Of a DNA stretch of 64,000 bases, positions 4,348 through 53,716 are shown in pieces (position 1 is the first letter of the stretch; each line of letters opens with the position of its first letter). The notes below the pieces were generated by a model. It was not told where the DNA came from. It ran no database searches and saw nothing but the letters and a program-made list of their open reading frames with translations. The DNA is from Lutibacter sp. (GTDB lineage: Bacteria; Bacteroidota; Bacteroidia; Flavobacteriales; Flavobacteriaceae). The stretch spans positions 248,001-312,000 of the forward strand of contig JAUXPH010000040.1 in NCBI GenBank assembly GCA_030683995.1, given 5' to 3'. The translations under genes were made by a program, and so were the position numbers.

Positions 4348-4824
4348 TTAAAGGTTTTCCAACATTGATTTTTCTTTTGCCGACAAAGGAACTTCATTGG
4401 CGAATTTATATTTGGTGGGATAAACCACAAGAATCATCAGCATTAATATGCCAACCAAAATAAAGTAAAAACTGTTGTTGGATTCCATCACAAAAATAAT
4501 GCACATTAACGCAGGAAATTCTAACATAGCAACCCTAAAAATATGTGCCGTACTGTATTTGGCGGCTTTTTGCGATAAATTGGCATCTGCCGGAATTTGC
4601 TTTAAAAGCTTGTTATACAAATATTTACTGGATAAATTTCCCACAAAAGAAATCAAGATTGCCATATATAAAAACATTTTATCTTCTTCATAAGAAAAAA
4701 ACAGTTGTTCTCCGGCATTTAAAGCCACGTATGCTCCAAAAACCACAATAATAAACAATAAGGAGAAGTGGATTAATTGCAACGATTTCATAAAATCTTT
4801 TGGTTGTCGGTTGGTATAGCTCAT
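4348..4824 (-). CDS. Conserved hypothetical four-helix membrane protein
   Basis: A 158-residue protein with four hydrophobic segments (about residues 14-34, 50-64, 94-112 and 116-134) and a short cytoplasmic C-terminal tail (VPLSAKEKSMLENL). I do not recognise a named family; similar small four-helix proteins next to kdsB or hisS are common in Flavobacteria, but this is a general impression and not a search result. Its start codon abuts the heptanucleotide repeat array that separates it from kdsB. Function unknown. Confidence 0.7.
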   Translation of the reverse strand: MSYTNRQPKDFMKSLQLIHFSLLFIIVVFGAYVALNAGEQLFFSYEEDKMFLYMAILISFVGNLSSKYLYNKLLKQIPADANLSQKAAKYSTAHIFRVAMLEFPALMCIIFVMESNNSFYFILVGILMLMILVVYPTKYKFANEVPLSAKEKSMLENL

Positions 4825-4826
4825 TG

Positions 4827-4980
4827 GTTAGATGTTATTTGTTAAATGTTAAATGTTATAGGTTATAGGTTATAGGTTATAGGTTAAATGTTATAGGTTA
4901 TAGGTTATTGGTTATTGGTTATTGGTTATTGGTTTTTGGTTATTTGTTAGATGTTATTTGTTAAACGTTATTTGTTAATA
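4827..4980. repeat. Heptanucleotide tandem array, 22 units of GTTANNN
   Basis: Twenty-two consecutive 7-bp units, nearly all beginning GTTA on the plus strand (one GTTTTTG), run in perfect register without a single indel. The common units are GTTATAG, GTTATTG, GTTAAAT and GTTATTT. The array fills the spacer between kdsB and the next gene, begins 3 bp from that gene's start, and extends into the end of kdsB, encoding its last residues and stop codon. Confidence 0.92.
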
Positions 4981-5705
4981 TTTATAAAGATTGCCTTTGC
5001 TTTTTCCAAATCTTCGGGTGTGTCGATGCCAATGGCAATTTGATCGGTTTCTACCATTTTCACTTTTAATCCGTTGGCCAAAAAACGAAGGTTTTCTAAT
5101 TTTTCCGCAGCTTCCAGCCTATTCATTGGCAATTTGGTGAATTTTAGTAAAGCATCTTTTCTGAAGGCATAAATACCGATATGTTTATAATAATCGGCAA
5201 AAGATTCATCCCTTGGATACGGAATTGCCGAACGAGAAAAATACATCGCGAAATTTTGCTCATCAGTCACCACTTTTACATTGTTCGGATTGTTAATTTC
5301 AGCTTTGTCATCCATTTTTATCATTAAGGAAGCGATGTCAATTTCCTTTTTTTGATCCGTTTTAAAAACTTCCAGCAACATTGAAAGTGATTCTCTTTGC
5401 GTAAAAGGTTCATCACCCTGAACGTTTACAACAATGTCAACCTCCATATTTTCAATGGCTTCCGCAATTCTGTCACTCCCCGATTCGTGCTCCTTTTTAC
5501 TTTTTATGGCTTTCCCTCCGGTGAAAATAATTTCATCAAAAATAACATCACTGTCCGTCACCACATAAACTTCATCAAACAAATTGGCATTTTTTGTTGC
5601 TTCATAAGTTCTTAAAATAACCGTTTTCCCTGCCAAATCTTTCATTAATTTTCCAGGAAATCGGCTTGCCTCAAAGCGTGCGGGAATCATTGCGATAATT
5701 TTCAT
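4968..5705 (-). CDS. kdsB: 3-deoxy-manno-octulosonate cytidylyltransferase (CMP-Kdo synthetase)
   Basis: KdsB activates Kdo with CTP to give CMP-Kdo for lipid A core assembly. Seen: N-terminal [20 protein letters not shown] (sugar nucleotidyltransferase signature), [26 protein letters not shown] (metal/CTP-binding), and [13 protein letters not shown], all as in KdsB. The length of 245 residues is standard. The last codons (INK and stop) lie inside the 7-bp repeat array, so the C-terminus has probably been set by the repeat. The ATG overlaps the stop of the upstream BrkB gene by 4 bp, indicating translational coupling. Confidence 0.96.
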
Positions 5706-6842: not shown

Positions 6843-6866
6843 ATTTTTTGATTAATTCGTGATTTT

Positions 6867-6894
6867 TTAACATTTAACATATAACATTTAACAT
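6867..6894. repeat. Heptanucleotide array 3' of nadC (4 units, TTAACAT type)
   Basis: Four 7-bp units (TTAACAT, TTAACAT, ATAACAT, TTAACAT) end 11 bp from the nadC stop codon. This is the same 7-bp family as the kdsB array, in reverse-complement form. Confidence 0.8.
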
Positions 6895-6905
6895 TTTACT
6901 GATAA

Positions 6906-7763
6906 TTAAACCGCTTTCAAACTCAAATCCATATTGTAAACAGAATGTGTTAAAGCGCCTGAAGAAACATAATCTACGCCGCATTCGGCATATTTCCTGA
7001 CGGATTCCAAATTTATGCCGCCGGATGATTCGGTTTGGCATTTATTTCTAATTAACTGAACTGCTTTTTTGGTTTCTTCAAAATCAAAATTATCGATCAA
7101 TATTCTGTGAATGCCTTCGTGTTCCAATATTTCCTTAATTTCTTCAATGCTTCTGGCTTCAACAATAATTTTTAAATCTAAGCTATTTTCTTTTAAGTAG
7201 CTTTTTGTCTTTTCAATGGCTTTTGAAACGCCTCCGGCAAAATCGATATGATTGTCTTTCAACATAATCATATCATACAATGCAAATCGGTGATTTTCGC
7301 CACCGCCAATTTTAACCGCCCATTTTTCTATGGCCCTGATGCCCGGCGTGGTTTTACGGGTATCCAAAATTTTGGTTTTTGTGCCTTCCAGCAATTTGGC
7401 AAATTCCTTTGTTTTTGTGGCAATGGCGCTCATTCGCTGCATCACGTTTAACACCAATCGCTCCGATTTTAAAATAGATTGTGAGCTTCCTTCCACATAA
7501 AATACCACATCGCCATATTTTACGGTTTCTCCGTCGTTAATCAATGTTTCCACTTTTAACGCCGAATCCACATAACTAAAAATTCTTTTAGCCATTTCTA
7601 CGCCTGCAATAATTCCGGCTTCTTTAACCAATAATTTTGCTTTTCCTTTCGCTTCTTTTGGAATACACGCCAAAGAGCTGTGATCACCGTCACCCACATC
7701 TTCTCTAATAGCATTTGAAATGATTAGTTCAAGTTCTTTTTCAAATTGTTTTTGTGAAATCAT
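6906..7763 (-). CDS. nadC: Nicotinate-nucleotide diphosphorylase (quinolinate phosphoribosyltransferase)
   Basis: NadC makes nicotinate mononucleotide from quinolinate and PRPP in de novo NAD synthesis. Seen: N-terminal EDVGDGDHSS, the RLVLNVMQRMSAIAT helix, the active-site block ILDTRKTTPGIRAIEKWAV with GGGENHR and MIMLKDNHI, and the C-terminal VDYVSSGALTHSV. All are highly conserved NadC motifs, and 285 residues is the family length. A TATTTTTG -7 element lies 21 bp upstream of the start. It is separated from the BrkB gene by the tandem repeat and a heptad array. Confidence 0.97.
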   Translation of the reverse strand: MISQKQFEKELELIISNAIREDVGDGDHSSLACIPKEAKGKAKLLVKEAGIIAGVEMAKRIFSYVDSALKVETLINDGETVKYGDVVFYVEGSSQSILKSERLVLNVMQRMSAIATKTKEFAKLLEGTKTKILDTRKTTPGIRAIEKWAVKIGGGENHRFALYDMIMLKDNHIDFAGGVSKAIEKTKSYLKENSLDLKIIVEARSIEEIKEILEHEGIHRILIDNFDFEETKKAVQLIRNKCQTESSGGINLESVRKYAECGVDYVSSGALTHSVYNMDLSLKAV

Positions 7764-7839: not shown

Positions 7840-7850
7840 CCGAATTAAAC

Positions 7851-7931
7851 GAGCATTGCAAATTTTGACATACAAAGTAATGAATAATGGCAGGCAGCAA
7901 TCTGTTACCGTTAAAAATAGAATGTAAATAA
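7851..7931 (+). promoter_or_regulatory. Dispersed leader element with short uORF, rlmH copy
   Basis: An ~80-nt element starting GAGCATTGCAAATTTTGA runs up to the rlmH start codon and closely resembles the sequences in front of coaE and the CBS-domain enzyme. It contains a 15-codon ORF at 7880-7927 (MNNGRQQSVTVKNRM) whose stop TAA is 4 nt before the rlmH ATG. A stem (TAATG/CGTTA, then CAG/CTG) can form within it. See the findings for the comparison. Confidence 0.7.
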
Positions 7932-8405
7932 ATGAAAATTAAACTGTTGGCCATTGGCAAAACCGATGATAAAAATTTACAGACCTTAATTGAGGCTTAT
8001 CAAAACAGGCTGAAGCATTATATCAATTTTGAGATTGATGTGATTGCCGATATCAAGAATGTCAAAAACCTAACCGAAGCGCAGCAAAAGGAAAAGGAAG
8101 GCGAACTCATTTTAAAAAAATTAACGGCAACAGACGTTTTAATTTTATTGGATGAAAAAGGAACCCAATTTAGTTCTGTCGCATTTTCTGAATATCTTCA
8201 AAAAAAAATGAATGCCGGCGTTAAACAATTGGTGTTGGTGATTGGCGGCCCGTACGGATTTTCAGAAGCCGTTTACCAGCAGGCGCAAGGAAAAATATCC
8301 TTATCAAAAATGACTTTTTCGCACCAAATGATTCGCTTGTTCGTGGTGGAACAATTGTATAGGGCCAACACTATTTTAAAAAACGAACCATATCACCATG
8401 AATAA
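7932..8405 (+). CDS. rlmH: 23S rRNA pseudouridine-1915 N3-methyltransferase
   Basis: RlmH is a SPOUT methyltransferase that modifies pseudouridine 1915 in helix 69 of 23S rRNA. Family features are clear: [13 protein letters not shown] at the start, [28 protein letters not shown] (the SAM-binding knot), [23 protein letters not shown] and the C-terminal PYHHE. The length of 157 residues is exact for the family. Its last 8 bp overlap rdgB, so the two are translationally coupled. Confidence 0.97.
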
Positions 8406-19287: not shown

Positions 19288-19368
19288 CTGTTTATATTCT
19301 ATTTTTTAGCGGTAACAGCTGCTGTTCGCCAATAATCATTCATTTGTGTATCAAAATTTGTTATGCTC
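19288..19368 (-). promoter_or_regulatory. Dispersed leader element with short uORF, coaE copy
   Basis: The minus strand reads GAGCATAACAAATTTTGATA and continues to the coaE start, matching the leaders of rlmH and the CBS-domain gene. It contains a 15-codon ORF at 19339-19292 (MIIGEQQLLPLKNRI) ending 4 nt before the coaE ATG. A second overlapping ORF (MNDYWRTAAVTAKK) starts 4 nt earlier in another frame. The hairpin TTGGCG-AACAG-CAG-CTGTT-AC-CGCTAA spans its middle. The element starts only 3 bp after the stop of the upstream YbbR-like gene. Confidence 0.7.
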
Positions 19369-19371
19369 CTT

Positions 19372-20340
19372 TCATTTTTGAATTAAAAATTCCAGTTGTG
19401 GCGGATTTATTTTCAAGGCATAAACAAAATCACTTTTTTTCGTTATTATTGGCGTTAAATAAGTGATTAACGTATCGTTTTCATATTGTTTATAATCAAA
19501 AACCACCGTAACATCATTTTGGGTAATTTTACTGAAATTTGAAAGTCCGGCCTGATAAATCACTTCAATTTCTTTAGGAAAAGTTGTGACTGTAACACCA
19601 AACGGGACATTGATAATGGTCACCGGGATTTTAAAAGTGCCCTCTGTGAATTTATCGACCTTCCCATTGACCTTAACTTTTATGGCCGACATTTTTATTT
19701 GTTCTGATTTATAGGGCGATTTTAATACCAAATCTACCGCAATATCTTCAAATACATCATTTAATTTTAACGGACCCGTGGTAATTCCGGCTATGGAATC
19801 AATGAGTTTTTTTGAACCTGAAACAGTCACGGAATCGGGTATCAATACCAATTTCTCCACCAAATTATACCCGGCTTTATATTGAATTTCGAGATTGGGA
19901 ATTATAGGAACTTTTTTAGAGATTGAATTGCCTATTTCAATATAAATAGTATCTCTTAAAACGCTCATAATTTCTATTTCATTTGAAAATTGTGAATTTA
20001 AGAAGGCAATTTGCTTGTTTGGCAATATGTAATAGTTCGATTTGGTTTTGGCAATATTTTTTAACTTCAATAATATTTTGCGCTTTTTGAATTTATATTT
20101 CAGCAACATAAATCCTGGCGCCTTTATTTGCAATTCCACTTCAGAAATAGGCTTTTTCTGAACCATTTTATCCTTTGGCAAATCTGTATATTCCACCTTA
20201 AACACAACAGGCGAAATAAAAGTATTAGACAATCTCATCAACACCCATATAATGGAGGACAATACCAAAAAAAATAAAAAGACTTTTATTTTTCTGTTAT
20301 TTTTAATCGATTTAATGGCCGAAGCTGTTGTTGTTTTCAT
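19372..20340 (-). CDS. YbbR/CdaR-like membrane-anchored protein
   Basis: A 322-residue protein with one N-terminal membrane helix (about residues 18-37) and a long extracytoplasmic part made of repeated YbbR-type beta domains (for example VEYTDLPKDKMVQKKPISEVELQI and NVPFGVTVTTFPKEIEVIY). In Firmicutes, the YbbR protein CdaR regulates the diadenylate cyclase CdaA; in Bacteroidetes the role is not established. It is followed by coaE, with the leader element between them. The family assignment rests on repeat pattern and gene context. Confidence 0.75.
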   Translation of the reverse strand: MKTTTASAIKSIKNNRKIKVFLFFLVLSSIIWVLMRLSNTFISPVVFKVEYTDLPKDKMVQKKPISEVELQIKAPGFMLLKYKFKKRKILLKLKNIAKTKSNYYILPNKQIAFLNSQFSNEIEIMSVLRDTIYIEIGNSISKKVPIIPNLEIQYKAGYNLVEKLVLIPDSVTVSGSKKLIDSIAGITTGPLKLNDVFEDIAVDLVLKSPYKSEQIKMSAIKVKVNGKVDKFTEGTFKIPVTIINVPFGVTVTTFPKEIEVIYQAGLSNFSKITQNDVTVVFDYKQYENDTLITYLTPIITKKSDFVYALKINPPQLEFLIQK

Positions 20341-23727: not shown

Positions 23728-24729
23728 TTAATAAAAAATACTAAAATCTCCTCTTCTTCCGCTTCTGTAGGGATCTAAATCAAATATAAAAAAGGCATTG
23801 ATAGAATTACTGACAAAGTAGTCTGCTTCCTTACTAAAAGGCATTTTATAATTGAGTCCAAAATCAAATATTTCCATATGCAAAGCAGCGTTTACGCCAA
23901 ATTCATGCACATTAAAATCATCCATATAATTAAAATGTTGGCTTATGCCAATTGCGAATGTAGATAAATTTAATTCCTGATAGAAATCCAATCGGTACTT
24001 GTTTGCCTGTTTTGAAGCTGCCCCAAAAAGATATAAATAGGAATATCTCGGCAACATATTTTGATTGTATCTGTTAATGTCAATTTCATATCCCAGCTGT
24101 GCAGAAACAAGCGTTTCCAACTTATACTTTTCGTCTTCTTCCACTGAATTTTTGGGCCTGTTTAAATGCTTTAACGACAGACCGAAAAATAAATTTTCAT
24201 CGTTGCTCATGGTAAATGACGCACCCATATCAAGATAACTTATTTTACCGCTTTCTGCCAAAGGATCAATAGTGACAGAATTGATTTGGCCCGTAAATAA
24301 ATTAATTTGATCCTGAAAAACCATTTCATTAAAGTTAAAACTGGCCGTTGAAAAACCAGCGGTTAAACCCGCGTATACAAGCCAATAATTGGACATTTCC
24401 ATGTGGTAAACATAACTCACAGAGGCCTGTGTATTTGAATAACCCGAATTACTGAGTTTGCTGTTATACACATCAACCCCCAAGCTGAAATTGCTGTATT
24501 CAAAAAATGTATTTGCAAAAAGGTAGCGTTGTTCCAATTTACTGTCAAAAGTCTTTCCCGGGAATTTATTTACAACACCAATTTTTGTTGTGTTTTTAAA
24601 CCCATAAAAACTGGGATTTAGAAAATTTGGCATTTTATTTAAATTATCAATAATTTGATCTTGCCCAAATGAAAATTGAATCCCACAAATAATTAAAAAC
24701 GCAATGATTGTAAAAGTTCTTTTTCTCAT
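23728..24729 (-). CDS. PorP/SprF family type IX secretion outer-membrane protein
   Basis: A 333-residue protein with a signal peptide (residues 1-22, ending FSFGQ), followed by the PorP/SprF N-terminal pattern DQIIDNLNKMPNFLNPSFYG and alternating hydrophobic beta strands ending in an aromatic-rich C-terminus (FDLDPYRSGRRGDFSIFY), as expected for an outer-membrane barrel. SprF-like proteins are needed for secretion or surface attachment of their adjacent SprB-like adhesin through the type IX system. Its start overlaps the adhesin gene stop by 4 bp, supporting that partnership. Confidence 0.9.
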   Translation of the reverse strand: MRKRTFTIIAFLIICGIQFSFGQDQIIDNLNKMPNFLNPSFYGFKNTTKIGVVNKFPGKTFDSKLEQRYLFANTFFEYSNFSLGVDVYNSKLSNSGYSNTQASVSYVYHMEMSNYWLVYAGLTAGFSTASFNFNEMVFQDQINLFTGQINSVTIDPLAESGKISYLDMGASFTMSNDENLFFGLSLKHLNRPKNSVEEDEKYKLETLVSAQLGYEIDINRYNQNMLPRYSYLYLFGAASKQANKYRLDFYQELNLSTFAIGISQHFNYMDDFNVHEFGVNAALHMEIFDFGLNYKMPFSKEADYFVSNSINAFFIFDLDPYRSGRRGDFSIFY

Positions 24730-27700
24730 CTTAATAATAATGCTTGATTACTTACAATTACTTCTTTGCCAAAATTATCTATTCCTTTAAAAACATATTT
24801 AAATATCTTTCCATTAAATGGAGTGCCATCACGCAAATTGCCGTCCCAACCCCAATTATTATTACTGACCACATTGGCGGCTGTGGCAAAAAGCAGGTTA
24901 TTCCACAGGTCATAAATCTCAAATTCAAAACTGTTGAAGCCTACTAATTCCCCTTGGAAGTAATCATTTATGCCATCACTGTTGGGTGTAAAAATATCAG
25001 GAAACATAGCGAGATATCCTTTGCCCACACTAATTTTTTTAGTGTATTCTTTATAACAGCCTAAATCATTATAAATCCTTAGCGTCACATCCCGTATTCC
25101 TGATACAACAAAGCTATGTACCGGAGATTCTTCCTCGGATAAATCGGAACCGTCACCAAAATCCCACTCCAATCTTGTATAAGGCAGTGCTGATGTATTT
25201 CTAAAAGTGACAGGTTCATTTATATTAATAATCCCATTTATATTATAGCCGACAGAGCTTATTTCGAATGAAGGGTTAACTACTTTGATGTCGATAGTAA
25301 CGGTTTCACCACACCCATATTGATTGACAATATTAAGAACGCCATCAGCAACAAAATTATCAATATAAACCAAATAATTGTTGCTGCCTAAATTATCGGC
25401 ATTTGCCACAATGCCATTGTAGTAAAAACTAACCGGGCCATTATTTTCATCGATCACTTTAACAGTCAATGTCCCTGCATTGCCTTTACATAAATTACTG
25501 TCCAACACCGGATTTTCCAAAATTCTAATTGAATTTTGTGTGCTGACTGTATAAATCGTTTGAAATTTGTAGGCTGGATTGCTATCTGAACAATTAAACA
25601 AATTACTGGTAACTGTTAGCCTGTATCTTCCTTCCATTAAATTATTTACCCTTAATATATTTTGACCAATTACAGTATACGTCGGATTTGGATTTCCGGT
25701 GTTCGCACTTGGTATTTCTCGCTCCCAAAGAATGCTGTAGGGTATTTTTCCTCCATTAATATTGACTGCTATGTAACCATCGGCATTTTCTGAATCACAA
25801 CTTACATTGCCAATCATATTATTGACAACAATGGGTTGATAATTGGCAGTAAATGTAAAACTTATGGGTGCGCTTTTGCAATTTTGGCTGTCAATAATAA
25901 TACCAACATAATTTCCGGGTATAATTGGTATGACAGCCTCATTGGAATGATAATTATTGGGGCCAAACCACTCAAAGTTATAATAAGGGTTACCATTACT
26001 ATCCCTATAAGGTATTCCTCCTCTTATGTCAACCACATTTATTCCAAATGTAGGGTTACTGTTACAAGTATCAAATTCAATTGCCGTAGTGCCCGTAAAT
26101 TCTAATGGCACATAAGCATCCAAAGTGAAGTTTTTAGTAATAGTACAGCCATTGTCATCAGAAACAATAAGTGTATAATTCCCCGCATTTAAAAGATTCG
26201 TAATCGATTTTAAATTAGCGCCGGATTGTGAAAAAGAGGAAGGTCCTGTCCAAGCATAAAAATAGTTTGTGCTTACCCCGCCGGTCACCTGAACGGTAAT
26301 TGAACCGCCTTTATTACAAATAATAGGCTGCACGTTTTCAGTAAGTGCCAATGCATTTGGCTCTGTTATTATAACTTCTACTGAAGTCGTACAACCATTC
26401 TTATCGGTAATGATTATTGTATGTTTACCCGCTTTTAAATTTGATGCAGTTTTACTTGTTGAATTACTGCTTAAACCCCAATCATATTTGTAAGGTTCAA
26501 CTCCACCTGTCGGCATTATCGTTGCTACTCCGTTACTCTCCCCTTTACATTTTACCGGACTGTCCTGAGTGGCTGTTGCTGATAATTTAGCCGGCTCAGT
26601 AATTAATACAGAAACTATTGTTTCGCATAAATTTGCATCTACTACTTTTACAGTATGAGTTCCTGCAGTCAAATTTGTAACTGTAGCGCTTGCTGCCGAA
26701 TTACTGCCATCCCAAAAAAAGGTATATGGAAGTTTTCCGCCAGAAGCTGTTACTGTAGCTGAACCATCAGCGCTTCCATTGCAGGTTACTGCTTTAAGTT
26801 GAACTGCAGTAGCCGTTATAGAAACCAATTCCGTAATCATTACGGTAGCTGTTGTTACACAATCATTTGCATCCCTGATTGTAATGGTATGTGATCCAGC
26901 AGATAAATCTATGGCTACATCACTTGAAGAAGCGCTTTTATCCCAAAAATAAATATATGGAGGCGTGCCGCCAACAACTGTTACTGTTGCCGCTCCGTTT
27001 GAGGCTCCTTTACAAAGTACCGGACTGTTTTGAGTTGCTGTTGCCGTTATAACTATTGGTTCGGTAATTGTCACTGTTGTCGTGGTTTCACAACCATTTC
27101 CATCTATTACCTTTACGGTATGAGTTCCTGCATTTAAATTTGTAACTGTCGCGCTTGATGCTGCCAAATTGTCCCAATAATATGTATAGGGTGTAGTGCC
27201 GCCAACAGCAGTTACTGTTGCTGATCCATTGGACTCTCCTTTGCATTTTACCGGACTGTTTTGAATTGCTGTTGCCACTAAAAGCGCAGGTTCCGTGATG
27301 ATTACTGAAATTGTTTTTATGCAACCATTTGCATCCTTGACGGTAATGTTATGTGTCCCTGCCGATAAATCCGCAGCAGTATTGGTTGTTGCTGCACTAT
27401 TTTGCCATACATAAGTATAAGGTGTCGTTCCGCCTTCAACTGTCACTGTTGCTGATCCATTTAAGGCTCCTTTACATTTTGCAGGACTGTTTTGAATAAT
27501 AGTTACCGTTAAATCAGCTGGCTCGGTAATCACTACATTGGCTTTTATTTCACAGCCATTCTTATCTTTTACTGTAACAGTATGAATCCCAGCAGCCAAA
27601 TCTGAAGCTACAGCACTTATGGATGTACTTTTATCCCAAGAATAGGTATATGGCAATGTTCCTCCAATAGCTGTTACTGTAGCCGACCCATTAGATGCCC

Positions 27701-29222
27701 CATTACATACCACTGATTTATATTGAGTGGCCATTGCCGTTAATACCGTTGGTTCGTTAATAAGCACAATTGTAGATGTTTCACAACCATTTGCATCCCT
27801 TATGGTAATATTGTGTACGCCAGCAGCTAAATCTGTAGCTGTATTAATTGTTGATGAACTATTTTCCCAAATATAGGTATAGGGCAATGTTCCTCCAGAA
27901 GCGGTCACAGTGGCTGATCCATCAGACCCTCCAAAGCATTTTACAGAACTATTTTGAATGGCTGTTGCAGATAAAATAATTGTTGGTTCAGTAATGGTTA
28001 CAAAAGCCTTAATTTCACAATCATTTGCATCTTTGATGGTAACAGTATGGATTCCTGCCGCTAAGTCTGAAGCTGTGGCGCTGGTGGACGAACTTTTATC
28101 CCAAGTATACCTATATGGAGTTGTCCCGCCGGAAACAGTAACTGTAGCGACTCCGTCAGAACCTCCCTTGCATTTTACTGGACTGTTTTGAATTGCTGAT
28201 GCCGCTAAAATAGTTGGTTCAGTAATTGTTACCGTAGCAGTTGTTTTACAACCATTTATATCTGTTATTGTAACAGTATGAAATCCAACACCTAAATTTG
28301 TTGCTTGAGCAGTTATTGCCGTACTTTTATCCCAAGAAAAACTATATGGGGTTGTTCCTCCCGTAACTGTTACTGTTGCTACGCCATTAAATTCCCCTTT
28401 GCATTTTACCTGACTGTTTTGGACAGCTGTCGCCGATAAAACTGCTGGTTCAGTAATCGTTACTAAAGCTGTTGCTTTACAACCATTAGAATCGGTAATG
28501 GTAATAGTATGCAACCCCGCTGCTAAATCTAAAGCTGTTGCACTTGTTGATGAGCTTCTATCCCAAATATACGTGTAAGTACCTGTACCACCTAAAACTG
28601 TAACCGTTGCTTTTCCATTGGATTCTCCATTACATTTTACCGGGCTGTTTTGAGTTGCTGCTGCCGTTAACAATGTTGGTTCAGTAATTGTTATTGTAGT
28701 AGATATTTTACAACCATTCTTGTCTGTAATTGTAACGGTATGTAATCCCGCAACTAAATCTGTAGCTGTATTAAGTATTGAACTACTACTCAGACCCCAA
28801 TCATATGTATAAGGTGATGTTCCGCCAAAAGCTGTCACCGTCGCTGAACCGTTAGATTCTCCTTTACATTTTACCGGGCTGTTTTGAATTGCTGTTGCCG
28901 CTAAAACAGCTGTTGGTTGAGTGATTATTACATCCACAAAATTGGTGCAACTAGGTGTAGGCGTCTTTGAATCTGTCACTGTTACTCTATATGTCCCAGC
29001 TGCTAAACCGGTCGCTTTTGCCGTTGTTTGAACCGGACTTGTATTCCAAGAATAGGTATAAGGTGCTGTTCCACCAGCTCCTATAGCAGTGGCTTCACCA
29101 TCAGAACCCCCAAAACAACTTACCGCTTTAACTGTTGCAGTTACCGTACATTGCCCATTTGCATAAGCAACCATAAGAAAAAAGAAGAGAAATTGAAATA
29201 ATTTAAATCTAAAATACAGCAT
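24726..29222 (-). CDS. SprB-repeat surface adhesin with type IX (CHU_C) C-terminal domain
   Basis: A 1498-residue secreted protein. Order: signal peptide (residues 1-24, ending YANGQ); twelve SprB repeats of 77-80 residues (25-956) with the pattern VKCKGESNGSATVT..GGT.PYTY.W....TATDL.AG.HTVTI.D.NGC...VTITEP; one divergent SprB-like unit (957-1040); further Ig/SprB-like modules; a PKD domain (WDFGDGSDLSEEESPVHSF); and the gliding-motility C-terminal domain FPDIFTPNSDGINDYFQG...NNLLFATA. The last domain is the type B secretion signal. It is most likely a cell-surface adhesin for gliding or attachment; it is much shorter than SprB itself. A promoter lies upstream and the SprF-like partner downstream. 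Confidence 0.94.
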   Translation of the reverse strand: MLYFRFKLFQFLFFFLMVAYANGQCTVTATVKAVSCFGGSDGEATAIGAGGTAPYTYSWNTSPVQTTAKATGLAAGTYRVTVTDSKTPTPSCTNFVDVIITQPTAVLAATAIQNSPVKCKGESNGSATVTAFGGTSPYTYDWGLSSSSILNTATDLVAGLHTVTITDKNGCKISTTITITEPTLLTAAATQNSPVKCNGESNGKATVTVLGGTGTYTYIWDRSSSTSATALDLAAGLHTITITDSNGCKATALVTITEPAVLSATAVQNSQVKCKGEFNGVATVTVTGGTTPYSFSWDKSTAITAQATNLGVGFHTVTITDINGCKTTATVTITEPTILAASAIQNSPVKCKGGSDGVATVTVSGGTTPYRYTWDKSSSTSATASDLAAGIHTVTIKDANDCEIKAFVTITEPTIILSATAIQNSSVKCFGGSDGSATVTASGGTLPYTYIWENSSSTINTATDLAAGVHNITIRDANGCETSTIVLINEPTVLTAMATQYKSVVCNGASNGSATVTAIGGTLPYTYSWDKSTSISAVASDLAAGIHTVTVKDKNGCEIKANVVITEPADLTVTIIQNSPAKCKGALNGSATVTVEGGTTPYTYVWQNSAATTNTAADLSAGTHNITVKDANGCIKTISVIITEPALLVATAIQNSPVKCKGESNGSATVTAVGGTTPYTYYWDNLAASSATVTNLNAGTHTVKVIDGNGCETTTTVTITEPIVITATATQNSPVLCKGASNGAATVTVVGGTPPYIYFWDKSASSSDVAIDLSAGSHTITIRDANDCVTTATVMITELVSITATAVQLKAVTCNGSADGSATVTASGGKLPYTFFWDGSNSAASATVTNLTAGTHTVKVVDANLCETIVSVLITEPAKLSATATQDSPVKCKGESNGVATIMPTGGVEPYKYDWGLSSNSTSKTASNLKAGKHTIIITDKNGCTTSVEVIITEPNALALTENVQPIICNKGGSITVQVTGGVSTNYFYAWTGPSSFSQSGANLKSITNLLNAGNYTLIVSDDNGCTITKNFTLDAYVPLEFTGTTAIEFDTCNSNPTFGINVVDIRGGIPYRDSNGNPYYNFEWFGPNNYHSNEAVIPIIPGNYVGIIIDSQNCKSAPISFTFTANYQPIVVNNMIGNVSCDSENADGYIAVNINGGKIPYSILWEREIPSANTGNPNPTYTVIGQNILRVNNLMEGRYRLTVTSNLFNCSDSNPAYKFQTIYTVSTQNSIRILENPVLDSNLCKGNAGTLTVKVIDENNGPVSFYYNGIVANADNLGSNNYLVYIDNFVADGVLNIVNQYGCGETVTIDIKVVNPSFEISSVGYNINGIININEPVTFRNTSALPYTRLEWDFGDGSDLSEEESPVHSFVVSGIRDVTLRIYNDLGCYKEYTKKISVGKGYLAMFPDIFTPNSDGINDYFQGELVGFNSFEFEIYDLWNNLLFATAANVVSNNNWGWDGNLRDGTPFNGKIFKYVFKGIDNFGKEVIVSNQALLLR
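26355..29150 (-). repeat. Twelve tandem ~231-bp coding repeats (SprB repeats)
   Basis: In-frame tandem repeats of 77-80 codons within the adhesin gene, with short near-identical blocks at DNA level (for example the stretch encoding NSPVKCKGESNGSATV). Unit lengths counted from the protein are 80, 79, 77, 77, 77, 78, 77, 77, 77, 77, 78 and 78 residues. Confidence 0.92.
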
Positions 29223-29594: not shown

Positions 29595-30956
29595 TTACTG
29601 AATCGCCCTAATCACGTCGTGTTTGGTAATGATGTGAAATTTATCATTGCCCAGGTTTACCAGTACAGCACCGTTATCTCGGTTGATGAGTTTTGAAATC
29701 TGATCGATGGACGTGTCGCTTTTTACTATTGGAAAAGGCGCCCGCATCACTTCTTTTATCGGTTTGTTGGCGATGTCCTTGTCGTTGAAATACAAACGAA
29801 ACAAATCACTTTCATCCACTGACCCCACAAATCCGTCCACATCGGTAACCGGTATTTGGGAGATGTCATAATTTCGCATACGCTCAATGGCGTGAGAAAC
29901 CAATTCTTCCGTTTTTACGGTAATCATAGGAATATCTAAACGGTCTTTGATTAAATCGATGGCCACCTTTTTTTCATCGTCCAGAAAACCGCGTTCACGC
30001 ATCCAGTCATCGTTAAATATTTTGGCAACATATCGACTGCCGTGGTCGTGAAAAAGCACCACCACCACGTCGTCTTTGGTGAAATGTTCTTTCAGTTGCA
30101 ACAATCCTTTCACTGCAGAACCTGCTGAATTTCCCACAAATATCCCTTCTTCCTTGGCAATTTTACGTGTATAAACCGCCGCATCTTTATCGGTCACTTT
30201 GGTAAATCCATCGATTACGCTGAAATCCACGTTTTTAGGCAGAATATCTTCTCCGATGCCTTCAGTGATGTATGGATAAATTTCATTCTCGTCGAAAATG
30301 CCCGTTTCGTGGTATTTTTTAAAAACCGAGCCATAAGTATCTATTCCCCAGATTTTAATGGCAGGATTTTTCTCTTTTAAATATTTTCCAACACCCGAAA
30401 CAGTTCCTCCGGTGCCAACGCCCGTAACAAAATGGGTAATTTTTCCATCGGTTTGTTCCCATATTTCTGGTCCGGTCTGTTCATAATGCGCCAGAGAATT
30501 CGACGGATTGTCGTATTGGTTTACGTACCAGGAATTTGGGGTTTCTACCGCCAAACGTTTTGAAACAGAATAATAAGATCGCGGATCATCAGGTCCTACA
30601 TTTGTCGGACACACCACCACTACAGCGCCCACAGCCCTTAAAATATCCATTTTTTCTTTGGATTGTTTGTCGCTGATGACACAAATCAATTTATACCCTT
30701 TAATAATTGCCACCAAAGCCAATCCCATTCCTGTATTTCCTGATGTGCCTTCAATAATGGTTCCTCCAGGTTTTAACACCCCTTGCTTTTCGGCATCTTC
30801 AATCATTTTTACCGCCATCCTGTCCTTCACAGAATTTCCGGGATTAAAGGTTTCCACCTTAGCCAATACCAAGGCATCAATTTCTTTTACAATTTTATTG
30901 AGTTTAACCATTGGGGTGTTGCCAATAGTTTCCAGTATATTTTTAGCGTATTTCAT
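29595..30956 (-). CDS. PLP-dependent cysteine synthase/cystathionine beta-synthase with CBS domains
   Basis: A 453-residue enzyme: an N-terminal fold-type II PLP domain (residues 1-310) with the PLP-binding Lys in NPGNSVKDRMAVKMI, the substrate loop EGTSGNTGMGLA and the phosphate-binding GTGGTVSGVG, followed by two CBS domains (about 335-450, DISQIPVTDVDGFVG and NRDNGAVLVNLGNDKFHIITKHDVI). It makes cystathionine from Ser and homocysteine, or cysteine from O-acetylserine; which one cannot be decided here. The CBS pair may bind an adenosine ligand. The dispersed uORF leader lies immediately upstream. Confidence 0.93.
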   Translation of the reverse strand: MKYAKNILETIGNTPMVKLNKIVKEIDALVLAKVETFNPGNSVKDRMAVKMIEDAEKQGVLKPGGTIIEGTSGNTGMGLALVAIIKGYKLICVISDKQSKEKMDILRAVGAVVVVCPTNVGPDDPRSYYSVSKRLAVETPNSWYVNQYDNPSNSLAHYEQTGPEIWEQTDGKITHFVTGVGTGGTVSGVGKYLKEKNPAIKIWGIDTYGSVFKKYHETGIFDENEIYPYITEGIGEDILPKNVDFSVIDGFTKVTDKDAAVYTRKIAKEEGIFVGNSAGSAVKGLLQLKEHFTKDDVVVVLFHDHGSRYVAKIFNDDWMRERGFLDDEKKVAIDLIKDRLDIPMITVKTEELVSHAIERMRNYDISQIPVTDVDGFVGSVDESDLFRLYFNDKDIANKPIKEVMRAPFPIVKSDTSIDQISKLINRDNGAVLVNLGNDKFHIITKHDVIRAIQ

Positions 30957-31050
30957 CTATTTAGATTTTATTTTTTTAGCGGTAACAGCTGCTGCCGGCT
31001 GGCTGGTTCGCTATTAATCATTCGGTTGTAAATCAAAATTTATTATGCTC
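30957..31050 (-). promoter_or_regulatory. Dispersed leader element with short uORF, CBS-enzyme copy
   Basis: The third copy of the leader: GAGCATAATAAATTTTGAT at its 5' end and CAGCTGTTACCGCTAAAAAA near its 3' end, with an extra ~13 bp in the loop region. It encodes a 17-codon ORF at 31021-30968 (MINSEPASRQQLLPLKK) whose stop is 11 nt before the gene start. The stem TAGCG-AAC...GTT-AC-CGCTA is retained. Confidence 0.7.
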
Positions 31051-31075
31051 GTTTCATCTGTTTAGTTTTCGAATG

Positions 31076-31130: not shown

Positions 31131-31222
31131 CCCGATAGCTTATCGGGAAAAATTAAGCTTAATTTGGAATAATAATTAAACAATTTGAACTTTTTTAATT
31201 CCCCCTTCGGGGGTTAGGGGGC
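31131..31222. repeat. CCCGATAG palindrome and C5-GAA-G5 element 3' of the FtsX-type gene
   Basis: Contains the dispersed palindrome CCCGATAGCTTATCGGG (31138-31154 region) and, directly after the permease stop codon, the element reading on the minus strand GCCCCCTAA followed by CCCCCGAAGGGGG and AATT. The latter has four relatives elsewhere in the window. Confidence 0.75.
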
Positions 31223-31223
31223 T

Positions 31224-32459
31224 TTATTCAAACTTAATGGATTTTGCCGGACTTATTTTTGCGATAATGATGGAAGGAATAATTAGCATAGACAAGCAAA
31301 GTAACAATGTACCTACATTTAAAAGGACAATATACCCAAAATCAATATAGACCGGAACCCTATTTACGTAGTAGGTTGAAGGATCTAAGGTTAAAACACC
31401 AAAATATTTTTGAACAAATAGCAGCGTGAGCCCAATAAGGTTTCCCCAAAACAATCCTTTTATGATCAGATAGGCCGCATTGTACAAAAAGATTTTTCTG
31501 ATGCTGAAATTGGACCCGCCAAGCGCTTTTAAAATGCCTACCATTTGTGTTCTTTCTAAAATAAGCACCAATAAAGCGGTAATCATATTGATGCCGGCAA
31601 CCAAAATCATAATGGCGATAATCAAGTACATATTGTTGTCGAACAAACTAATCCATTCAAAGATGGATGGATATTTTTCAATAACGCTTTTACTGTTTAA
31701 AACCGAAGCCGTTTGCAAATAAACCTGGTCGCTTTTTTGCTGAATATCATCGAAATTGTTCAGCAACACTTCAAATCCGCCTACTTCATCATCGTTCCAA
31801 CGGTTCATTTTTTGAATGTGCCTGATATCGGCAATCACAAAATTTTCATCAAACTCCTGAAAGCCGGAATTATAGATTCCCACCACGTTCACCACACGAA
31901 TCCAGGGCGCTTTTGCCGGATCATCCTTTACAAAAAGAATGTTAAATTCATCATCCAGATGTATATCGAGCCTATTGGAAATTTCTTCGGATATGAGCAC
32001 TTCATTGGCAACTTCTTTAGAAAAATTGGGCAATCTTCCTTTGGTGAGGTATTCTTTAAAAAAAGTCCAGTCGTACTCCTGCCCCACGCCTTTAAAAATA
32101 ATGCCTTCAAAATCGGTTTTGGTTCTTATGATTCCCGCTTTGGTGGCAAACACCTGCACATTTTTAACGCCTTCTATGGTGGTGAATTTCGGATAAAAAA
32201 CCTGTTTTTTTGAAACCGGATTTAAAGTAATCTCCGAATTGTTGTCGTCAAAATTCGTAATTTGTATGTGTCCGTTAAACCCTGAAAGTTTTTCGCGAAT
32301 CTTTTGCTGAAGTCCGATCCCTGTAGCCACGGAAACCATCATAATAACCATCCCCATCGCAATGGCGATAATGGCGATTTTTATTATCGGTGATGAAATG
32401 CTACTTTTGTATTGCTTTGCGGCAATAATGCGTTTTGCAATAAATAACTCGTAATTCAA
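31224..32459 (-). CDS. FtsX/LolE-type ABC transporter permease
   Basis: A ~411-residue membrane protein with one N-terminal helix (PIIKIAIIAIAMGMVIMMVSV), a large extracytoplasmic MacB-like domain (about residues 60-270) and three C-terminal helices with NMITALLVLILERTQMVGILKALG, the FtsX-domain signature. It resembles LolC/LolE permeases that extract lipoproteins from the inner membrane. The open frame extends to an ATG at 32486, but that would overlap the divergent NamZ-like start; the TTG at 32459 (LNYELFIAKRII) matches how family members usually begin, so I chose it. No ATPase gene is adjacent. Confidence 0.88.
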   Translation of the reverse strand: MNYELFIAKRIIAAKQYKSSISSPIIKIAIIAIAMGMVIMMVSVATGIGLQQKIREKLSGFNGHIQITNFDDNNSEITLNPVSKKQVFYPKFTTIEGVKNVQVFATKAGIIRTKTDFEGIIFKGVGQEYDWTFFKEYLTKGRLPNFSKEVANEVLISEEISNRLDIHLDDEFNILFVKDDPAKAPWIRVVNVVGIYNSGFQEFDENFVIADIRHIQKMNRWNDDEVGGFEVLLNNFDDIQQKSDQVYLQTASVLNSKSVIEKYPSIFEWISLFDNNMYLIIAIMILVAGINMITALLVLILERTQMVGILKALGGSNFSIRKIFLYNAAYLIIKGLFWGNLIGLTLLFVQKYFGVLTLDPSTYYVNRVPVYIDFGYIVLLNVGTLLLCLSMLIIPSIIIAKISPAKSIKFE

Positions 32460-35203: not shown

Positions 35204-35418
35204 GTTGTCCCCACAACGGTTTAATCAAGAGTTGTCCCCACAACGGTTTTATTTTGAAAAAAACAGTAAAGATTAAGTTCATTAAATAAAATAAAAATCA
35301 ATGTCCCCACAACGGTTTTAAAATTAAAAGCATAAAAATGGTTGTCCCCACAACGGTTTTAAAAATCAAATTTCCTTTTATTAAATAAGTAATAAGTTGT
35401 TGTTCTACAACAGTTTTA
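35204..35418 (+). repeat. Cluster of five GTTGT-CCCC-ACAAC hairpin units
   Basis: Copies start at 35204, 35231, 35300, 35341 and 35399. The unit is GTTGTCCCCACAACGGTTTT (then A); the first is followed by T-A instead, the third has AATGT for GTTGT, and the last is degenerate (GTTGTTCTACAACAGTTTTA) but keeps the GTTGT/ACAAC stem. Intervals are 27, 69, 41 and 58 bp, so spacing is irregular. The units lie between the 62-aa gene and the convergent YkgJ gene. Confidence 0.85.
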
Positions 35419-36225: not shown

Positions 36226-37995
36226 ATGCAAAACAGTTTAGAAAACGCCATAAAAAAAGGGTTAAAAGAAATTTACGATGTCACATTGGACTCGGTGGAA
36301 TTTCAGGCAACGAACAAAGACTTTGAAGGTGATATCACCGTGGTTATTTTTGCGCTATTACGTTACATCAAAGGAAATCCTGTTGAAATTGGCACCAAAC
36401 TGGGCAACTATTTAAAAGAAAATGTACCTGAAGTTACAGATTTTAATGTGGTGAAAGGCTTTTTGAATCTGGTGATTTCCGATGAATTCTTCCTGAATGC
36501 CTTCAATGAAATTTATAAGACTCATAACTACGGATTTGTAACACCGAATCCGGCCGAAAAAGCGGTGATGGTGGAATATTCTTCCCCAAATACCAATAAA
36601 CCATTGCATTTGGGGCATATCAGAAATAATTTATTAGGCTATTCCGTGGCCGAAATTATAAAGGCTTCCGGGAAAAAAGTATATAAAACACAAATCATCA
36701 ACGACCGTGGCATCCATATTTGTAAAAGTATGCTGGCCTGGCAACGTTTTGGCAATGGCGCAACGCCGGAAAGCACCGGTTTAAAAGGAGACAAATTGGT
36801 GGGAAACTACTATGTGGCCTTCGACAAAGCTTATAAAGAAGAAATTGCCCTGTTAATTGCGGCTGGAAAAACCGAAGAAGAAGCTAAAAAACAGGCACCC
36901 ATTTTGTTGGAAGCCCAAGAAATGCTTCTTAAATGGGAAGCCGGAGATGAAGCAGTAGTTTCTCTTTGGAAAACAATGAACCAATGGGTTTATGCTGGTT
37001 TTGATCAAACCTACGCCACGCTTGGGGTAGATTTTGACAAAAATTATTACGAAAGCACGACCTATTTATTGGGAAAAGATGTGGTTACTATTGGACTTGA
37101 AAAAGGCGTTTTTTACAAAAAAGAAGATGGCTCGGTATGGATCGATTTAACCGCAGATGGTTTGGATGAAAAAATTGTTTTGCGATCGGATGGCACCGCG
37201 GTTTATATGACTCAAGATATTGGAACCGCCATTGAACGTTTTAAAGATTTTGATTTAAGTGAGCTGGTTTATACGGTTGGAAATGAGCAAGATTACCATT
37301 TTAAAGTGTTGTTTCTGATTCTTAAAAAACTGGGCTTTGAATGGGCTGATAATTTATACCATTTATCGTATGGCATGGTAGATTTACCTAGCGGAAAAAT
37401 GAAATCACGTGAAGGAACCGTGGTAGATGCCGACGATTTAATGGAAGAAATGGTAGCTACTGCCAGAAAGATTTCACAGGAATTGGGAAAACTGGAAGGC
37501 TATTCAAAACCGGAAAAAGAAGCATTGTATAAAATAATTGGCTTGGGTGCCTTAAAATACTATATTTTAAAGGTAGATCCAAAAAAACGAATTTTGTTCG
37601 ATCCTGAAGAATCTGTCGATTTTAACGGAAACACAGGTCCGTTTATCCAATACACCTATGCCCGAATTCAATCCATCATCAGAAAAGCAGATTTTGATTT
37701 TTCAGGAGAAATTTCGGCTATTTCCTTGCACGAAAAGGAACGCGAACTGATCAAACAAATTCAGCAGTTTCCTGAAATCATACAAAATGCATCCAAAAAT
37801 CACAGTCCGGCCCTGATCGCAAATTACACGTATGATTTGGTAAAAGAATACAATTCGTTGTACCAAAGTCTGCCCATTTTAGGAAGCGAAAACGAAAACG
37901 AAAAAATACTGAGAACACAACTTTCAGCAAAAGTGGGCGAAATTATTAAAGCCGCTTTTAAATTATTGGGGATTGAAGTTCCGGAAAGGATGTAA
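36226..37995 (+). CDS. argS: Arginyl-tRNA synthetase
   Basis: Class I synthetase charging tRNA-Arg. With the start at MQNSLENAIKKGL it has 589 residues, the normal size. Seen: an N-terminal Add1-like domain, the HIGH-type motif SSPNTNKPLHLGHIRNNLLG, the GIHICKSMLAW region, DGTAVYMTQDIGTAIERF, the KMSKS-like KMKSREGTVVDADDL and a C-terminal anticodon domain with GPFIQYTYARIQSI. The frame is open for 24 further codons upstream, but those encode a Leu/Ile run unlike ArgS and contain the promoter element. Confidence 0.96.
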   Translation: MQNSLENAIKKGLKEIYDVTLDSVEFQATNKDFEGDITVVIFALLRYIKGNPVEIGTKLGNYLKENVPEVTDFNVVKGFLNLVISDEFFLNAFNEIYKTHNYGFVTPNPAEKAVMVEYSSPNTNKPLHLGHIRNNLLGYSVAEIIKASGKKVYKTQIINDRGIHICKSMLAWQRFGNGATPESTGLKGDKLVGNYYVAFDKAYKEEIALLIAAGKTEEEAKKQAPILLEAQEMLLKWEAGDEAVVSLWKTMNQWVYAGFDQTYATLGVDFDKNYYESTTYLLGKDVVTIGLEKGVFYKKEDGSVWIDLTADGLDEKIVLRSDGTAVYMTQDIGTAIERFKDFDLSELVYTVGNEQDYHFKVLFLILKKLGFEWADNLYHLSYGMVDLPSGKMKSREGTVVDADDLMEEMVATARKISQELGKLEGYSKPEKEALYKIIGLGALKYYILKVDPKKRILFDPEESVDFNGNTGPFIQYTYARIQSIIRKADFDFSGEISAISLHEKERELIKQIQQFPEIIQNASKNHSPALIANYTYDLVKEYNSLYQSLPILGSENENEKILRTQLSAKVGEIIKAAFKLLGIEVPERM

Positions 37996-38374
37996 AAGCC
38001 CCCTAACCCCCGAAGGGGGAATTGATAATTGATCATTAAGATGTTGAAAACTGAGAATCTAGATTAGAAAATATAGAGAAAAGACTAAAGGAAAAAATTA
38101 GTCAATTTAGAAGGTGAGAATAAAGAAAGAATGAATTAAACCTCTAATAACAGCATTTGTGTTAGGGATTGCAGTGAAAATCCTTTTTTGATTCGCCCTT
38201 TTGGTGAATGAAAAAAGATTGTAACGAAAAGCCCGCCCCGCCAGCTGGCGGGGAACGCCCAAAATAACGTTCTATAAATTGCTGTTCTTATTAGAATTAA
38301 GTCATAAAAAATAAAAAGTGCAGTTTTATGTTCACTAACAACTGCTAATAAATAAACAATTAAACAAATAAAAC
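37996..38374. repeat. Spacer between argS and lpdA with C5-GAA-G5 element and a GGGAACGCCCA-type repeat
   Basis: Four bases after the argS stop comes GCCCCCTAA followed by CCCCCGAAGGGGG and AATT, the same element that follows the FtsX-type gene. At about 38160-38268 there is a longer dispersed element running from GTGTTAGGGATTGCAGTG to GGCGGGGAACGCCCA with an internal CCCGCC-AGCT-GGCGGG palindrome; its reverse-complement relative is at about 54850-54975. No gene is supported. Confidence 0.7.
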
Positions 38375-46537: not shown

Positions 46538-46580
46538 TACTGTTTTTATATTGAGTTGTGGGTTTTTATTTTTAGAACTT

Positions 46581-46636
46581 CTAATATTTAATATCTAATA
46601 TTTAACTTCTAATATCTAACATTTAACTTCTAATAT
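46581..46636. repeat. Heptanucleotide array 3' of hisIE (8 units)
   Basis: CTAATAT, TTAATAT, CTAATAT, TTAACTT, CTAATAT, CTAACAT, TTAACTT, CTAATAT in perfect register; the next word in phase, CTA, is the hisIE stop codon (TAG) itself. Confidence 0.88.
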
Positions 46637-48036: not shown

Positions 48037-48164
48037 CTGGCAAAGTTAAATATTAGAAGTATTGATTGTTTCGTTTTTCATTTCAAAAAAGTTGAATTTT
48101 TATATTAAAAGTTGAATTTTTAGTGCTTATATAAAAAAATATCTAATATCTAATATCTAATAAT
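48037..48164. other. Part of hisA-hisF spacer with heptad array
   Basis: AT-rich, with CTAATAT units at 48143-48163 continuing the 7-bp family, interrupted by the palindromic element that follows. A direct repeat AAAGTTGAATTTTTA occurs twice (around 48088 and 48107). Confidence 0.6.
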
Positions 48165-49092: not shown

Positions 49093-49728
49093 TTATATTT
49101 TCAAAAAATTCGCTAAAATTTGTTCCCCGACATCACCACTTTTTTCTGGATGAAATTGTGTTCCATAAAAATTAGACTTTTGCAAAGCTGAAGCGTATTT
49201 TAGGCCATAATCAGTGGTAGCTATGGCTTCATCATTCATCGGAACATAATAACTGTGCACCAAATACATATATTCGTTTTCAGCAATTCCTTCGAACAGT
49301 GCTGATTTCAAGTTGGAAATTTGGTTCCAGCCAATTTGCGGAACTTTCACCGTATTGTTAAACTTCACCACATCCACATCAAAAATACCCAAGCCTTTGG
49401 TGTCGCCTTCTTCGCAATAATTGCACATCAGTTGCATACCCAGACAAATTCCCAATACAGGCTGCTTTAAAGTTGGAATCAGTTGGTCCAAACCAGTCGA
49501 TTTCAATTTCTTCATGGCGCTGCTCGCCTCTCCAACACCGGGAAAAATGACTTTATCCGCTGCGGTGATTTCTTCAACATTGTCGCTTAAAACCGCTTCA
49601 TAACCCAATCGCTGAATCGCAAATTTTATGGATTGTATGTTTCCTGCACCGTAATTTATAATAACTATTTTAAGCCCCCCAGCCCCCGAAGGGGGAGCTG
49701 ATACCGTGTGTTTTATAATTTGAATCAT
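49093..49728 (-). CDS. hisH: Imidazole glycerol phosphate synthase glutaminase subunit HisH
   Basis: Class I glutamine amidotransferase that supplies ammonia to HisF. Seen: [29 protein letters not shown], the nucleophile Cys in [18 protein letters not shown], and the catalytic His/Glu in [12 protein letters not shown]. Family members start at the [12 protein letters not shown] position; here no start codon exists there, and the frame continues through a C5-GAA-G5-type repeat to an ATG at 49728. So the protein carries an 18-residue extension ([18 protein letters not shown]), the SAPPSGAGG part being repeat-encoded. Confidence 0.93.
49674..49701. repeat. C5-GAA-G5 element inside the 5' end of hisH
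   Basis: Plus strand AAGCCCCCCAGCCCCCGAAG then GGGGAGCT, the same element that follows argS and the FtsX-type gene, but here inverted relative to the gene and translated as part of HisH. Confidence 0.8.
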
Positions 49729-53589: not shown

Positions 53590-53716
53590 CCTATCCCCAA
53601 CCCTTTCCTAAGGAAAGGGAGTTTGATTGGACTTAAAATCTTAATCGTAATAAATAATTAAAGAACTTTTAAAATTCCCCCTTCGGGGGCTAGGGGGCTT
53701 TCGGGGGCTAGGGGGC
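53590..53716. repeat. hisD-hisG spacer with repeats
   Basis: Contains a palindrome CTTTCCTAAGGAAAG (53604-53618) and, immediately 3' of the hisG stop, a doubled C5-GAA-G5-type element: minus strand GGCCCCCTAGCCCCCGAAAG followed by CCCCCTAGCCCCCGAAGGGG. Confidence 0.75.

Follow-up and report, generated by a model that had tools for sequence, protein, structure and literature searches.

Elements of the IS200/IS605 type, which are served by the Y1 transposase TnpA, have no terminal inverted repeats and keep a fixed word in the left flank. For IS608, the available part of one study (PMC5934647) describes insertion 3′ of a retained tetranucleotide, with folded ends and short guide sequences that pair with the cleavage sites and the target. 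A repeated element in the window (the whole 64,000-nucleotide stretch of Lutibacter sp. DNA analyzed here) resembles them: no terminal inverted repeats are seen by eye, and a fixed word remains in its left flank. Its covarying CATNTG/CAN'ATG helix may be a guide for the cleavage site. It differs in being ~88 nt in all and in having a right end that repeats the target word, rebuilding the start codon. No linked TnpA was found for it among the Y1 genes examined.

HEARO elements adjoin ATGA or GTGA. The target-adjacent motif of IscB/IsrB, which belong to the IS200/IS605 superfamily, can be NTGA, and DtIsrB nicked ATGA targets, according to the accessible text of PMC9581776. Unlike these OMEGA and HEARO systems, the element contains no internal nuclease gene and has no Rfam match at the gathering threshold. 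REPs are short, occur in many copies and are thought to be mobilized in trans by Y1 proteins (PMC8266576, in its available part), and they carry a GTAG (or CGTC) tag (PMC3733652 and PMC8266576, available parts). The element is as short and as high in copy as the REP/BIME repeats of TnpA-REP (RAYT), but its consensus has neither GTAG nor CGTC, and the Y1 genes of its own genome lie amid other repeats. Rickettsia palindromic elements, described as ~150 bp and integrated in genes in the accessible text of PMC10969869, are likewise small selfish DNA tolerated by coding genes. They fuse in frame within genes, whereas the element lies mostly at start codons, where it does not alter the protein.

Flavo-1 RNA is dispersed in Flavobacteria. 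One example (RF01705) was detected by Rfam in the window at 38157-38242 (+) with 58.6 bits, and no element copy in the tested stretches matches its model at threshold. At its 3′ end, this Flavo-1 RNA runs into an arm (38230-38271) with 79% complementarity to 54842-54883. At gathering thresholds, Rfam gave no match to element copies in the stretches tested, and a permissive scan of the rlmH copy returned three families, with E of 2.7-6.5 only.

The observations as a whole are best explained by a miniature non-autonomous mobile element that is targeted to ATGAA, rebuilds the start codon and may move in a manner like IS200/IS605, a reading that we hold with high confidence. Miniature non-autonomous elements are known, but a target that makes insertion at a gene start harmless to the protein is an unusual feature, and searches of the open-access literature found no account of a start-codon-inserting element in Bacteroidota.

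Copies, target word and empty sites

The original prediction placed near-identical leaders directly before rlmH, coaE and a CBS-domain enzyme. Alignment with other family copies confirmed all three at these places, with slightly wider limits. Chance does not account for their relatedness (a whole-genome search with the rlmH copy as query returns the coaE copy at E = 1.4e-13), but 'near-identical' is too strong, since the coaE and rlmH copies have 79% identity over 89 nt. To our knowledge, rlmH, coaE and the PALP + CBS enzyme share no common pathway. The copies and their neighbors are as follows.

7844..7931, + strand: element copy before rlmH, 88 nt; contig coordinates of the profile match C11:255844-255936; empty site in genomes G172 and G162
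7880..7927, + strand: upstream ORF (uORF) of the original prediction, MNNGRQQSVTVKNRM plus stop; present, not conserved in the family
7932..8405, + strand: rlmH (SPOUT_MTase), first five bases ATGAA
18703..19287, - strand: coaE (domain match CoaE)
19288..19375, - strand: element copy before coaE, 88 nt
19372..20340, - strand: YbbR-like gene upstream of coaE, whose stop codon is regenerated by the insertion
29595..30956, - strand: PALP + CBS domain enzyme (domain match)
30957..31057, - strand: element copy before the PALP + CBS enzyme, 101 nt (C11:278952-279052)

The left word of the rlmH copy is ATTAA, not ATGAA, and the gene's own ATGAA lies at 7932-7936. At coaE, the left ATGA (19375-19372) also contains the TGA stop of the upstream YbbR-like gene. 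The CBS copy carries a short palindromic expansion, CCAGCCAGCCGGCAG. A sequence model built from 23 own-genome copies, with the three window copies in its training set, finds exactly three copies in the window, the fourth hit having E = 6.4.

The window holds repeats of other kinds as well. A 1498-aa ORF (24726-29222, -) contains at least eight DNA repeats at 231-nt spacing that are 62-76% alike (26820-28739), and its predicted product resembles a repeat-built surface protein. Runs of 7-base units (such as GTTATAG/TAACATT and ATATCTA) lie at 4809-4986, 6861-6907, 46568-46635 and 48116-48162, with further window copies in either orientation. The palindromic repeat CCCCCTTCGGGGGTTAGGGGG occurs in both orientations at 31187-31225, 37995-38028, 49672-49696 and 53663-53701, and short direct repeats, TTGTCCCCACAACGGTTTTAA, stand in four copies between ORFs at 35204-35370.

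The unit is 88 nt long in 40 and 87 nt in 19 of 98 complete own-genome copies. Longer copies measure 108 nt (7 copies), 107 nt (4) and 128 nt (3), with a CCTGCCGGCAGGCAG-type palindrome in the middle of the unit. From 5′ to 3′, the order of parts is ATGAA, AYGA, helix H1 (GC.. to ..GC), six linker bases (GARTTC or GAACAG), helix H2, in which CATNTG pairs with CAN'ATG across an A-rich loop, and AA. In most cases the gene starts with the last ATGAA. Tandem copies run head to tail with a single ATGAA common to each joint. Among the 79 own-genome arrays, the right-hand pentamer is ATGAA in 74, CTGAA, ATGAT and ATGAC in one each, and cut off in two, and the left-hand word is ATGAA in 70. Another ATGA-type site is rarely the target instead.

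In sister genomes, filled sites at rlmH, coaE and the CBS gene have ATGAA on each side of the element, and empty sites have a single ATGAA. Therefore, insertion restores the start codon and, at coaE, the stop of the overlapping upstream gene as well. That a mobile repeat inserts before start codons, one of the two possibilities raised in the original prediction, is borne out by insertion at ATGAA with precise empty sites.

Among 30 rlmH loci of the genus, 10 are filled and 19 empty, and in the remaining one, G167, the upstream region differs; the filled site of G179 has a copy with an inner deletion. The empty site of G172 reads ..tatatttaccga-ATGAAAATTAAACTG, and the filled site of G178 reads ..tatatttaccga-ATGAA-ACGAGC....AACAG-ATGAAAATTAAACTG. 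The filled state at rlmH is probably derived, because more distant genomes are among the empty ones. At coaE, 8 of 30 loci are filled and 22 lack the element. Empty sites with flanks of the filled type were found in G166, G163, G178 and G170, where a single ATGA combines the upstream stop with the coaE start. In filled sites with a typical left end (G000, G181 and G159), the left ATGA ends the YbbR-like gene and the right ATGA starts coaE. The CBS comparison used 18 of 30 loci, the others being paralogues or partial; 5 are filled and 13 are without the element, including those of G181, G180, G178 and G159. The G181 site is empty despite 98% protein identity.

The top-scoring copies of G172 and of G159, picked by score, show few base differences although their flanks differ, suggesting that they spread fairly recently. 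Some copies at coaE are chimeric, as those of G000 and G181 are alike in the 5′ half and unlike in the 3′ half, and this would fit tandem arrays that grow and collapse. As a separate observation, the rlmH leaders of G000 and G180 (L154 and L155) have the same flanks and the same decayed left ATTAA, with a strongly different element middle, which suggests conversion or tandem turnover inside this site.

The own genome (3.08 Mb) has 102 matches to the sequence model, and 101 copies, tandems included, lie in its 79 arrays. A second subfamily (ATGAAATGAGC.. CATATG) is seen alongside the main one at C11:93639-93732, and because the two coexist the own-genome count of ~100 is probably a lower bound. 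At C59:1-425 (L056/L108), five head-to-tail copies run off the contig end; long arrays of the element probably break short-read assemblies of these genomes. The own-genome locus L105 has a same-site copy in L333, a contig named Lutibacter.

A search of the genome and its relatives, as had been proposed, revealed a large family that extends beyond Flavobacteriaceae across Bacteroidota. Matches occur in 32 of 38 genomes of the genus, from 0 to 137 per genome depending on species, and in 44 of 149 genomes of the family sample, including the own genome and one congener, the remainder scoring weaker. A strict pattern (ATGAAAYGAGC - 30 to 60 - CATNTG - 12 to 34 - CANATGAA) matches 12 of 395 phylum genomes, two of which, G319 (8 hits) and G562 (3), are outside the own class, while a control in which GACG replaces GAGC has no match in any of the 395. 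Over GTDB contigs, at least 115 stretches matched the strict pattern, and the taxa among 80 of them are Flavobacteriales, Bacteroidales and relatives, Terrimonas, Marivirga and a few unnamed bacteria. The pattern imposes ATGAAAYGAGC, CATNTG and CANATGAA, so their conservation among these GTDB matches is no evidence. In a check for phage carriage, it matched one contig of a viral collection.

Helices, reading frame and start codons

Two short predicted helices covary across Bacteroidota: H1, which closes the 5′ half, and H2, which includes the start codon. The original prediction had named a different hairpin (TTGGCG/CGCTAA and its counterparts), whose complementary bases exist but are not the helices backed by comparison; the proposed check for covariation thus came out positive for other helices.

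The strict pattern leaves the fourth base of the left CATNTG and the third base of CANATG free. Among the phylum matches listed, this N pair is Watson-Crick in 108 of 119 (C-G 49, G-C 29, A-T 25, T-A 5, wobble 4, other 7). After three of the 119 were dropped as duplicates, it is Watson-Crick in 105 of 116 distinct copies among the matches listed, compared with 37 ± 4.7 with shuffled partners, the shuffles ignoring relatedness. The third and fourth pairs of H1 form in 85 and 74 of these 116 listed copies, compared with 46 and 54 after the same shuffling.

RNAalifold returned both H1 and H2 unprompted from 65 phylum copies, picked out of 97 eligible ones for a Watson-Crick N pair and a length of up to 100. 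The N pair of this alignment was selected for and hence is no evidence, in contrast to the free-N counts above. With the structure named, 94.7% of the cells of the 65-copy alignment pair, but 13-46% do so when partners are slid by 1-3 columns. The consensus of recent copies folds as H1 + H2 at -11.0 kcal/mol, and the mean folding energy is -15.8 vs -9.9 for mononucleotide shuffles (116/118 distinct phylum copies, among the matches listed). RNAalifold on the first 23 own-genome copies returned no pairs.

Of 98 own-genome copies, 58 have an intact H2, and its completeness does not increase with score (19/32, 21/33 and 18/33 from low to high). By eye, H2 no longer pairs in the rlmH copies of G000, G180 and G170, with the gene retained. 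Because H2 is broken or incomplete in many filled sites, the gene apparently does not need it. The phylum-wide covariation instead suggests that the element itself needs H2.

The original prediction also proposed a translational-coupling or uORF leader. The three upstream ORFs exist as written, with stops 4 nt (rlmH), 4 nt (coaE) and 11 nt (CBS) before the gene, but the frame is not conserved over 98 complete own-genome copies, and a uORF coding signal was rejected on that ground, which leaves translational coupling unsupported. Unit lengths in these copies fall into the three classes modulo 3 as 49/30/19. The uORF stop lies 4 nt before the gene in only 23 and at another distance before it in 58; in 3 it does not precede the gene, and the remaining 14 lack an ATG where one was sought. 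In variants such as ATGAAATGAGCC, the left frame runs for two codons before a stop. Both the uORF and the change to the 5′ UTR would be by-products of insertion.

The own-genome copies favor start codons but do not require them. When copies were mapped against start codons, as the original prediction had advised, 63 of 77 readable arrays ended on an ATG that opens an ORF of at least 40 aa, and 14 did not. By reading, the latter comprise seven in sense 5′ regions, two antisense, two intergenic, two inside reading frames (L104 and L116) and one by a contig start (L059). As examples of the sense 5′ group, a ruvA-like start lies 2 nt past the terminal ATGAA and a recA-like start 59 nt past it (names from sequence).

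The expected share was taken from the window, where ATGAA occurs 274 times: at 22 called starts, 38 intergenic sites, 212 coding sites and 2 at edges. Starts thus make up 22 of 60 non-coding sites, and 37% would be expected if non-coding insertion were neutral. The observed 63 of 75 non-coding arrays, with two arrays cut at contig ends and two inside reading frames omitted, gives a binomial P = 4e-17, treating arrays as independent and using simple ORF-based gene calls from one 64-kb window. ATGAA begins 22 of the 57 called window genes. In the phylum set, among the matches listed, the ATG after 87 of 118 distinct copies opens an ORF of at least 60 aa, and after 2 it opens one of 30-59 aa; a tandem copy follows in 8, while 19 are off-start and 2 at a locus end.

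Movement and alternative explanations

We propose that the element moves as folded single-stranded DNA in the IS200/IS605 manner. The internal CATNTG would serve as a guide, pairing with the cleavage site on the right, and its CAT would pair with the target's ATG. The enzyme would be supplied in trans from another locus. Copies would build up at start codons because insertion there keeps the protein intact, and preferential targeting of transcribed, exposed strands may add to the start bias. We say that the element may work like IS200/IS605, not that it is a member, because of four results: no matching Y1 gene among those read, the lack of a longer version in a limited search, the case of G161, and no clear preference for target bases beyond ATGAA.

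The own genome has three Y1 transposase genes (L029, L030 and L031 on C48, C24 and C7), each amid other repeat families and none cognate. Their own repeats, GTCCCGTTAGGGAC, GCGGATTTGCAATCCG and CTCGTCTGTGACGAG, are RAYT/REP-like and unrelated to the element. The Y1 transposases examined were rejected as the mobilizer, as a copy was found in just 2 of 52 Y1-containing stretches scanned, some of them overlapping. The two are in G181, directly before the Y1 gene, and in G159, near one; the other stretches had none at the threshold used. By eye, a degenerate-looking left end lies downstream of the Y1 gene of L214. Reading the flanks of nine IS200-like or related stretches in sister genomes turned up no Y1 gene whose flanks matched. 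In G161, which is 88% complete, there are 69 copies but Y1 has no match. Y1 genes occur in 13 of 14 genomes with at least 45 matches vs 7 of 24 others (hypergeometric 1.5e-4), an association that is weak because the 45-match cut was chosen post hoc and the high-copy genomes are mostly one clade by rlmH identity.

An autonomous, longer version with the same ends was absent from a limited search of 208 right-end matches, in which the partner check covered right ends, left ends being counted (n = 332). Fifteen distinct right ends without a recognized left end were copies with a changed left end or cut by the locus end. The target base beyond ATGAA matched the guide in 33 of 112 cases vs 26.5 expected (p = 0.077), so no preference is claimed. 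A G lies just 5′ of the own-genome target word in 29 of 78. Two stretches of G047 with near-consensus copies contained, by ORF reading, no mobile island but ordinary-looking genes.

The exactness of the sites bears on several other explanations. If a tyrosine or serine recombinase integrated a minicircle in a site-specific way, ATGAA would be the crossover core, and an identical core on both sides, one core common to tandem copies and precise empty sites would all be expected. However, no inverted arms are seen by eye around the core, and the covariation of CATNTG with CAN'ATG would have no obvious role, leaving this route improbable. A five-base repeat on both flanks also recalls a MITE of an ordinary DDE transposase with ATGAA as a chance 5-bp target duplication. 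That is very doubtful, since the duplication is always of a fixed word and not of arbitrary bases, the consensus ends ACGAGC.. and ..AAACAG do not read as mutual inverted repeats, and head-to-tail copies have one ATGAA in common. The chimeric copies at coaE in G000 vs G181 could be produced by an ordinary dispersed repeat that spreads by recombination without its own insertion mechanism; flanks that differ right up to ATGAA and exact empty sites contradict it, and we give it almost no credence.

Two further explanations start from the RNA. If the leader were cis-regulatory, with the start codon paired in H2, a regulating uORF and copies kept by selection on expression, then covarying helices that include the start codon, the strong start preference and the fold of the consensus RNA into H1 + H2 at -11.0 kcal/mol would follow. 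This is quite unlikely given the patchy empty sites in close relatives (as at the CBS gene of G181, with 98% protein identity), the unconserved uORF frame, the loss of H2 from the rlmH copies of G000, G180 and G170 while the gene persists, the copies where no gene starts and the diversity of downstream genes. Alternatively, the leader RNA could insert into, or template at, the AUGAA of an mRNA by reverse splicing or reverse transcription, which would directly explain the bias to start codons and to the sense strand (9 of 13 non-start copies are sense and 2 of 13 antisense by reading, with L059 omitted) as well as the conserved fold. Antisense and intergenic copies occur, however, and there is no Rfam family match at its threshold. 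RVT_1 is unmatched at E ≤ 0.001 in the own genome, which is 99.95% complete and carries ~100 copies, and its matches in 15 of 38 genus genomes do not follow element copy number. A reverse-transcriptase route is thus unlikely, and the RNA-level route as a whole strikes us as most unlikely. Compared with all of these, single-stranded movement of a miniature DNA element remains our preferred reading. As a bolder extension, held tentatively, these may be phylum-wide start-codon-homing elements with an internal guide that pairs with CAN-ATG, so that they recognize and always rebuild the initiation codon, served by a dedicated trans enzyme or an RNA-linked route. Their target specificity would then suit the single position in a bacterial gene at which an insertion does no harm.

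Mobile elements normally cost the gene they land in, and this element rebuilds its target word. ATGAA provides stop-plus-start where genes overlap and is also a very common gene start, and housekeeping genes, among them rlmH, coaE and one that is miaA-like (name from sequence), can carry the element with the protein unchanged. A structured leader of 88 or more nt has been added to some sixty genes of one genome, patchily among close species. Bacteroidota depend little on Shine-Dalgarno sites. For this phylum, the family offers a natural experiment on how leaders evolve and on translation initiation, and its enzyme, if found, would be a start-codon-directed inserter.
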